From positions 1,458,640 to 1,522,639 of the forward strand of contig JAVQMD010000001.1 in assembly GCA_032595675.1 (NCBI GenBank): a stretch of DNA of 64,000 nt, given 5' to 3'. The notes below the pieces were generated by a model. That model was given only the letters and a program-made list of their open reading frames with translations. It did not search any database and was not told where the DNA came from. Of the stretch, positions 52,555 through 53,795 are shown in pieces (position 1 is the first letter of the stretch; each line of letters starts with the position of its first letter). The stretch is from Candidatus Electrothrix rattekaaiensis (GTDB lineage Bacteria > Desulfobacterota > Desulfobulbia > Desulfobulbales > Desulfobulbaceae). The translations under genes were made by a program, and so were the position numbers.

Positions 52555-53082
52555 TCATGCAGACTGGCGACAAGCCGGATTGCAATGCTTGCTTCTGCCC
52601 CGAGTGAGATGGTCAAGCTGGGCACAGCCCTGTGTTGTTAGCGTCAGCTCGACTATCTCGCGATGTTTGTCAATAAGACCTGCTGGCAAGGCGTCTGGGG
52701 GGAAAAACTTGGCCTCCAGGATTTCATGCGGATCTACCTGAAGCTCACCGCCTTTTAATATTGCTACCATACTGACCTCGACCCGCATTTTATAACCGCT
52801 GTCAAAACGGAGAAAACGGGTCACTTCGATATCAAAATTGGTTTCCTCCTTTACCTCTCGTACCAAAGTATCACTGAGTTCTTCTCGGCGGACTGCAAAA
52901 CCACTGGGAAGTCCCCATGACCCTTCTTCCCAATATCGATGCCGTAAAAGCAGGATCTTGCCCTGATCATTAAACACCACTCCAGATACACAGACATTCA
53001 TTTTGCAGTGCAAAAACCACAGGATATACCACTGTATTGTTCCATTAAGATTCCGCCATATTTTCGCCAGTAGGCTGCTCAT
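52555..53082 (-). CDS. NUDIX hydrolase
   Basis: The 175 residues contain a Nudix box, GFAVRREELSDTLVREVKEE-TNF (about 61-83), with Asn where the second conserved Gly usually stands. The preceding VVFNDQGKILLLRHRYWEEG is typical of NUDIX proteins of the RNA/nucleotide pyrophosphatase group. The substrate is not predictable. A start further downstream (MNVCVSGVVF) is possible, but ATG 53082 keeps a helix (LAKIWRNLNGTIQWYILWFL) found in relatives. It is convergent with argS, 27 bp apart. Confidence 0.9.
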   Translation of the reverse strand: MSSLLAKIWRNLNGTIQWYILWFLHCKMNVCVSGVVFNDQGKILLLRHRYWEEGSWGLPSGFAVRREELSDTLVREVKEETNFDIEVTRFLRFDSGYKMRVEVSMVAILKGGELQVDPHEILEAKFFPPDALPAGLIDKHREIVELTLTTQGCAQLDHLTRGRSKHCNPACRQSA

Positions 53083-53141: not shown

Positions 53142-53552
53142 TTATTTTTCTTCTACCGGATACGCCACCTTATCTTCCTGGCCGAACCATTCTTTCCAGC
53201 CACCCTTGAGGGCATATACTTCCTTGAAACCTTTCTCCTCAATCAATGTGCGTGCCAAACTGGCACTGCTGCCTTCATTATTTCAAGCGCAGTAAATAAC
53301 CAGTTTTTTATCCGTTGGAATGCTGCTCAACCACTCGTCAACAGCTTTTGCAGGGGTGCGTACAGCCCCTTTAATCTTAAATTCGCTGGATTTCCAATCT
53401 TTTTCGGACCGTGCATCCATAATGACGATCTCACCCGAATCCATCTGTGCCTTCAGTTCCTCTTTGCTCATACGCGGGGCCTCTACGGCAAAAGCAACTG
53501 CCAAGGAACCGACAAAGAGAAACAGTGTGACTAAGAACAAAATTTTTTTCAT
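53142..53552 (-). CDS. Periplasmic rhodanese-like protein, probable selenoprotein (Sec90)
   Basis: The frame from ATG 53552 (AAAGGAG upstream) has a Sec signal (ILFLVTLFLFVGSLAVAFA) and a rhodanese domain (MDARSEKDW, IKGAVRTPAKAVDEW, KKLVIYCA) and reaches TGA at 53283-53285. It then continues in frame for 46 codons with clear rhodanese sequence (NNEGSSASLARTLIEEKGFK, then EVYALKGGWKEWFG) to TAA 53142-53144. Related rhodaneses have CAC-PNE at this place, so TGA stands where the second Cys of YCAC is. A bSECIS-like hairpin follows. Translated through, the protein has 136 residues with Sec at 90, probably a periplasmic thiol/selenol sulfurtransferase. A nonsense mutation is the alternative. Confidence 0.8.
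53252..53266 (-). promoter_or_regulatory. bSECIS-like hairpin
   Basis: On the minus strand GTGCCA-GTT-TGGCAC forms a perfect 6-bp stem with a 3-nt GTT loop. The loop begins 22 nt after the TGA, inside the 16-37 nt window and with the G and U in the apical loop expected of bacterial selenocysteine insertion elements. Confidence 0.7.
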
Positions 53553-53795
53553 GCTTCTTTCTCCTTTCGTGAATATTTAGTGATACAAAAAACGGCAAGC
53601 TGTCATCCATGCCCCCTTGAACTTTATCTATAATAAACAAAATACAAGATCCCTTCAAAATAAAAAAAATTTCTCGGAAGGATTGCATGGCTTTTCATGA
53701 GACTTCATAAGTCTCGTTGTCAGCTCCGGCAAAAGATGTTATCCTTTTTATCTATGTAAACTTGCTAGTAATATGCGATTTAACCTTCCTGAATA

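Follow-up and report, generated by a model that had tools for sequence, protein, structure and literature searches.

A probable selenocysteine codon in a rhodanese gene of Candidatus Electrothrix rattekaaiensis: a new example of a catalogued selenoprotein family

In the stretch of DNA analysed here (64,000 nucleotides, referred to below as the window), a rhodanese-type reading frame starts with ATG at 53552 on the reverse strand, meets TGA at 53285-53283, runs on through 46 open codons (residues 91-136) and ends with TAA at 53144-53142. The question raised by this locus is whether the TGA terminates the protein or encodes one of its residues. A preliminary description of the same DNA had read it as selenocysteine, and all the coordinates given there for the frame (ATG 53552, TGA at 53283-53285, 46 codons to TAA 53142) are correct. 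The data presented below favour the same reading: codon 90 most probably encodes selenocysteine in a member of the known family NF041203 (probability about 0.95), as supported by the selenocysteine machinery of the host, the conservation of the TGA, the hairpin downstream of it, the family assignment and purifying selection on the following codons. With the TGA read as Sec, the active-site loop is Tyr-Cys88-Ala-Sec90 (YCAU), where Cys88, given its position in the loop, is taken by us to be the rhodanese catalytic cysteine. All 32 rows of alignment A1, in which Sec is read as Cys, carry either Cys or TGA at position 88. This alignment leaves out L036, a Sec-type copy from the relative G187, where an internal TAA probably reflects gene damage or faulty assembly. 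The features of the locus are collected in the table.

Table. Features of the rhodanese locus, in positions of the window
Feature	Position	Strand	Basis
Rhodanese-type gene, probable selenoprotein of 136 aa with TGA as Sec	53142-53552	-	NF041203, PF00581, reading frame
In-frame TGA, probable Sec90 codon	53283-53285	-	TGA in the 6 genus orthologues found and in the best 80 of 236 relatives
TGC codon, Cys88, presumed rhodanese catalytic cysteine	53289-53291	-	Place in active-site loop
SECIS-like hairpin GTGCCA-GTT-TGGCAC	53252-53266	-	Loop 22 nt after TGA; stem conserved in Sec forms
Probable cleavable signal peptide, residues 1-22, MKKILFLVTLFLFVGSLAVAFA	53487-53552	-	By eye from sequence
Probable ribosome-binding site AGGAG	53561-53565	-	From sequence
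Intrinsic-terminator-like site after TAA	53103-53128	-	11 pairs, 4-base loop, T run; consensus match
NUDIX gene between argS and the rhodanese gene	52555-53082	-	

The read-through product matches the NCBIfam family NF041203 ('rhodanese-related (seleno)protein', rhodanese_LYCAU) with 162.3 bits at a cut-off of 115 (E 3.9e-48), and the Pfam Rhodanese domain PF00581 with 60.1 bits at a cut-off of 22.2. Its predicted structure (mean pLDDT 87.1, from a 32-row alignment with Sec as Cys) shows the rhodanese-like order of helices and strands, and the predicted fold matches solved rhodaneses, including GlpE (1gmx). Since NF041203 is matched and entries exist in two reviews, the family has to be regarded as already described. 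In the sections of these reviews cited here, NF041203 appears as 'Rhodanese-like domain-containing protein form 3' with the motif CxU (2026 review, PMC13188914), and 'COG0607 form 2, CxU' is listed with the same example accession (2022 review, PMC9312934). Moreover, rhodanese-related selenoproteins are included in tables excerpted from two other papers (PMC2398784, PMC1088965), and a rhodanese-like domain is mentioned among deltaproteobacterial selenoproteins in the relevant part of PMC8318568. In the open-licence literature, NF041203 was found together with 'selenoprotein' only in the 2026 review (PMC13188914), and 'LYCAU' together with 'selenoprotein' was not found. Judged by its sequence, the window gene is a new example of this catalogued selenoprotein family.

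Within the genus, a copy of NF041203 over the cut-off is present in seven of the eight genomes (the host genome included), and orthologues of the window gene were identified in six of the eight, namely the host's own gene, L162, L166, L161, L171 and L172, all with TGA at codon 90; the L162 protein is identical to that of L061 (Candidatus Electrothrix aarhusensis), and the L166 protein to that of L062. No orthologue was found in G398 and G399 (93% and 69% complete, respectively), and a scan without the TGA requirement yielded no Cys form of the window orthologue among the genus genomes. The orthologues compared below for synonymous (pS) and non-synonymous (pN) differences were picked with a pattern requiring TGA, and the conservation of the TGA rests on the separate scan without it. 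As judged from the aligned sequences, the 46 codons behind the TGA are under purifying selection: 14 of the 15 pairs differ there, and in each of these pS is greater than pN when counted per site, with pS 0.335 and pN 0.054 relative to L161, 0.268 and 0.036 relative to L061, and 0.346 and 0.135 relative to L171. As pS exceeds pN after the TGA, this stretch is not what would be expected of a tail behind a true stop.

Beyond the genus, a scan of the phylum gave NF041203 matches over the cut-off in 61 of 395 genomes; the matches number 86, and one or more TGA codons occur in 76 of them, their place having been checked only at the fetched loci. In the scan of genome contigs, position 90 is TGA in all of the best 80 of 236 relatives, and position 88 is Cys in 75 and TGA in five of these 80, which were selected by similarity and stand for the near relatives rather than for the family as a whole. 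Of the two patterns used in the search for relatives, one had Cys at position 90, so that the search, if anything, favours Cys forms. The pooled set of 117 distinct rows (score at least 175, so that L150-L156 are left out) comprises 94 CxU, seven UxU, nine CxC, five CxS, one SxS and one CxA; thus, position 90 is TGA in 101 rows, Cys in nine, Ser in six and Ala in one, and position 88 is the catalytic Cys or TGA in 116 of the 117. In L150-L156 position 90 is occupied, in this order, by Ala, Ser, Cys, Val, Cys, Cys and Cys. A chalcogen at position 90 is therefore not universal, as some more distant homologues have Ser, Ala or Val there. According to the preliminary description, the TGA stands where relatives have Cys. 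This holds in part: Cys forms do exist, being paralogous or more distant, but the nearest relatives carry TGA. The alignment of homologues at this site, which had been proposed as a check, shows both Sec and Cys forms, with TGA in all of the best 80 of 236 relatives.

A quick tree of the pooled set, built from 133 columns of the 117 rows and leaving 57 of its 114 inner branches open, was used to place the forms. In five of the six Ser-type rows (L143, L144, L146, L147, L148) Ser90 is encoded by TCA, one substitution from TGA, and the tree puts four of the five together into a single group; the TCA codons suggest a direct loss of Sec to Ser.

The host genome (4.48 Mb in 5 contigs, 96% complete) contains all four components of the selenocysteine machinery that had been named for a genome check, that is selA, selB, selD and tRNA-Sec, each over its cut-off. 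One tRNA-Sec exceeds the Rfam cut-off (74.8 bits vs 47), and ARAGORN reports a tRNA-SeC with the anticodon tca; selA (626 bits) and selB (375.9 bits) are both over the curated cut-offs. The best selD match (L058, G000:C1:1925405-1926334; 343.8 bits, also over the curated cut-off) has one in-frame TGA and probably encodes a SelD that itself contains selenocysteine, according to its sequence. A second selD-like frame (G000:C1:1741955-1742899), which has no TGA, is over the cut-off as well, with 252.3 bits.

The 6-bp hairpin with a GTT loop, described earlier as starting 16 nt past the TGA, is indeed present at 53266-53252. The bSECIS criteria, as given in the section of the 2026 review cited here (PMC13188914), are a loop of 3-9 nt with G in one of the first two positions, a stem of 4-16 bp, a distance of 16-37 nt from UGA to the loop, and an energy of at most -7.5 kcal/mol. 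The GTT loop, the 6-bp stem and the distance of 22 nt fit these values, while the bare hairpin, at -7.2 kcal/mol, falls just short of the energy limit. The fold of the 51 nt around it at 53240-53290, suggested previously as a check of the hairpin, gives -13.6 kcal/mol, but its stability is no greater than that of shuffles (z -0.66).

A generic hairpin rule (a stem of 4 bp or more with a G loop, 16-37 nt downstream) is not discriminating by itself, since controls pass it often: it holds for 78 of 78 TGA codons of the relatives, and also for 269 of the 421 Cys codons in the long frames of the window and for 289 of 468 other codons from the same genes. With the limit of -7.5 kcal/mol added, 16 of 78 relatives pass, compared with 14 of 421 and 15 of 468 controls. 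Hence, we rely on the fixed place of the hairpin and its conservation. In 80 of 80 Sec forms there is a stem of 5 bp or more whose G loop lies 20-23 nt after the TGA (the forms being the window gene, L018 and 78 of the 80 relatives, while L117 and L134 did not pass the motif filter); the control values for the same loop distance are 27 of 421 Cys codons for stems of at least 5 bp and nine of 421 for stems of at least 6 bp, and the value for at least 6 bp rises to 43 of 421 if the G loop may lie anywhere in the interval of 16-37 nt. In the 117-row set, the hairpin at the fixed distance is present in 100 of 101 Sec rows vs one of 16 non-Sec rows (CxU 93/94, with the exception of L052; UxU 7/7; CxC 0/9; CxS 1/5; SxS 0/1; CxA 0/1). 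Taken alone, the hairpin is modest evidence, as similar stems follow ordinary Cys codons; it stands above chance because the codon, the distance and the hairpin are conserved together across relatives.

Both sides of the stem have changed in two columns, from T-A to C-G in 11 of 80 and from C-G to A-T in two of 80 (numbers of sequences, not of events). In the other stem columns one-side changes that preserve pairing are observed, and the loop-adjacent pair is unpaired in 17 of 80. Codon choice in the stem is biased in the Sec rows, as judged from codon counts that may be off by one or two rows: Ala100, located inside the stem, is always GCA or GCG in the Sec rows (96 of 96), whereas Ala elsewhere in these genes is GCC or GCT at 803 of 1238 codons, as is Ala100 itself in five of eight non-Sec rows. 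The choice of AGT or AGC for Ser96 (99 of 100 Sec rows, within the same margin of one or two rows) says little, because the non-Sec rows share it (15 of 15).

These observations allow one to weigh the other explanations of the TGA. Under the standard reading the frame ends there, leaving an 89-residue fragment and a decaying tail, that is a pseudogene, and TGA is an ordinary stop in the host genome, terminating 18 of the 43 stop-to-stop frames of at least 250 codons in the window. Such decay is very improbable, given that the same TGA recurs in the six genus orthologues found and in the best 80 of 236 relatives, that the codons behind it change mostly silently, and that the hairpin is tied to the TGA forms. 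The 89-residue product would also be missing two helices and two strands that belong to the predicted fold. Furthermore, the terminator, placed by the preliminary description after the TAA and not after the TGA, does have a counterpart in the terminator-like site at 53128-53103 (two such sites were found in the region on both strands, the shuffle mean being 1.0). An error of sequencing or assembly in a Cys codon would require little, TGC and TGT being one substitution from TGA, but the chance of it is practically negligible, as other members of the genus, and many other groups too, have TGA at this codon in their assemblies.

The frame data alone do not provide the identity of the residue, and UGA might stand for some other amino acid, by general read-through or by reassignment (for example, to Trp). 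This is highly improbable in view of the many long frames in which TGA is a stop, the full Sec machinery in the genome, and the residues of the non-TGA forms, which have Cys, Ser, Ala or Val at this site and never Trp.

If codon 90 is selenocysteine, as we consider most probable, the UGA would be decoded by SelB and tRNA-Sec, aided by the hairpin that starts 16 nt downstream, and the product would be a single-domain, probably secreted rhodanese, its export being presumed. In rhodaneses, the persulfide forms on the Cys that opens the active-site loop. Here, Cys88 would accept sulfane sulfur (from polysulfide, thiosulfate or persulfide) as Cys-S-SH, and Sec90, two residues on, would attack the Cys88 persulfide, with sulfide being released or sulfur being passed on; the resulting Cys-Sec selenenylsulfide could then be reopened by a periplasmic thiol reductant. 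We regard this chemistry, with persulfide on Cys88 and resolution by Sec90, as tentative, and it may be proposed on the same grounds that the protein helps a probable cable bacterium to handle sulfur in its periplasm. An alternative that concerns the chemistry only, and to which we give similarly cautious weight, is that the Sec-containing product acts as a thiol/selenol redox protein (a persulfide, disulfide or peroxide reductase) and not a sulfurtransferase. The CxU pair is a redox-type motif, in agreement with this alternative. Moreover, the 2022 review, in the section cited here, argues for redox functions of most uncharacterised selenoproteins (PMC9312934). On the other hand, 116 of the 117 rows have either the catalytic Cys of the rhodanese loop or TGA in its stead, and the redox and sulfur-transfer roles are not mutually exclusive.

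Some relatives have TGA at both positions 88 and 90. These are the seven UxU rows (L041, L045, L056, L035, L100, L136, L139), where the two TGAs are spaced by 6 nt and are followed by the same single hairpin, 22 nt from the second UGA and 28 nt from the first; judging by this arrangement, one hairpin could serve both UGAs. In the quick tree, L139 pairs with the CxU row L120, and L136 with the CxU row L113 (support 100 each), while a third group unites four UxU rows with the CxU row L039 (support 99). Five changes of the UxU label are needed, four of them forced by starred branches, and in the CxU partners codon 88 is TGC or TGT, one substitution from TGA. Since the UxU rows have well-supported CxU sisters in separate parts of the tree, repeated switches between Cys and Sec at the catalytic site are probable. 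An assembly error could account for an isolated UxU row, but four distinct ones belong to a single supported group. The term 'UxU' is absent from the text of the 2026 review (PMC13188914), and a search of the open-licence literature found no paper on a rhodanese selenoprotein with two selenocysteines. Two close UGAs are not new in themselves, as selenoproteins with two near Sec residues (UxxU) are already present in the cited sections of both reviews (PMC9312934, PMC13188914). UxU is a lead on the relatives and not on the window gene. One may combine these elements into a single scheme, in which the active site switches between CxU, UxU and CxC, one hairpin provides for both insertions in the UxU forms, and the Cys88-Sec90 selenenylsulfide of the window protein reductively discharges persulfides in the periplasm of a cable bacterium; taken jointly, it is somewhat doubtful.

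The host genome also has a tandem (G000:C2:176678-177583; L157:4679-5584), in which a second Sec form (YCSU) is directly followed by a Cys form (YCAC), and which by its codons is a Sec/Cys pair within one genome. Seven of the eight genomes of the genus have the Cys copy, with a Sec copy, or what is left of one, next to it in G000, G395, G396, G397, G398 and G400. In L164/L177 and L178 the Sec copy of the tandem appears to be damaged. One branch of the quick tree (support 83, not starred) unites both tandem forms, Sec and Cys, with the window orthologues, the order among the three being open. Elsewhere in the host genome, a 277-aa protein (L158, G000:C1:869000-870500, reverse strand) with an N-terminal rhodanese domain has TGA at the catalytic Cys (YUAIGGRS) and is likely to be another selenoprotein, judging from that codon; its C-terminal stretch is weakly similar to ferritin-type families.

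The NUDIX gene that separates argS from the rhodanese gene in the window also lies beside the rhodanese gene in Candidatus Electrothrix aarhusensis (L061, and L162 with its identical protein). Only about 75-115 bases separate the argS and rhodanese matches in L171, L172, L062 and L166, which leaves no room for NUDIX, and in L161 only 67 bases match at the NUDIX position. Its absence at this place in L171, L172, L062 and L166 makes a shared role with the rhodanese unlikely, and the operon context of the rhodanese gene gave no functional clue.

The closest named record among the best 80 of 236 relatives is Candidatus Electrothrix aarhusensis, with 82% identity. As the closest named relative is this organism, and a genome of the same genus carries its identical protein, the host is probably a cable bacterium. 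A 2026 paper on sulfur genes of cable bacteria describes, in the parts cited here, up to seven rhodanese copies per genome, as well as a periplasmic clade, pRho, that is present in all cable-bacteria genomes and is expressed above the cytoplasmic rhodaneses in Candidatus Electronema aureum; the gene calls were those of GenBank or Prodigal/Prokka, with tblastn applied to genes not properly annotated. The main text of that paper has no words beginning with 'seleno', and the persulfide-discharging role proposed for Cys88-Sec90 was not seen in the cited parts of its sulfur model; a search of the open-licence literature for cable bacteria together with selenocysteine or selenoprotein found nothing relevant. 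Ordinary gene calling ends the window protein before the second active-site residue, and, if the host is a cable bacterium, surveys of periplasmic rhodaneses in these organisms may have missed or shortened Sec forms. On the same condition, cable bacteria would be expected to employ selenium in a sulfur protein of the periplasm. For the question of what Sec adds at a sulfur-transfer site, natural comparisons are offered by the Sec and Cys copies in tandem within the genus and by the CxU/UxU sister pairs of relatives.

Among the known systems, the single-domain rhodaneses GlpE and PspE resemble the window protein in fold (GlpE 1gmx), but it stays under the cut-offs of both (31.1 of 102 for GlpE and 20.3 of 102 for PspE). 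PspE is periplasmic, and neither GlpE nor PspE is known to have the CxU pair. The rhodanese/DsbD fusion-like selenoprotein TsoB (NF045694) also combines a rhodanese domain with Sec, but the window protein scores only 20.3 bits against its cut-off of 805, and the entry for TsoB in the cited section of the 2026 review is a fusion with two Sec residues, UxxxxU (PMC13188914). The rhodanese selenoproteins of form 1 (UxxS) and form 2 (UxxG), as they appear in the same section (PMC13188914), have Sec in the rhodanese domain, as the window protein would, but the motifs differ. The closest system is NF041203 itself (form 3, CxU; COG0607 form 2, CxU), with which the window protein shares both the domain and the CxU position; the loop reads UNNEGSS in the window protein and UPNEGTS in many NF041203 relatives, and no substantial difference between the two was observed.
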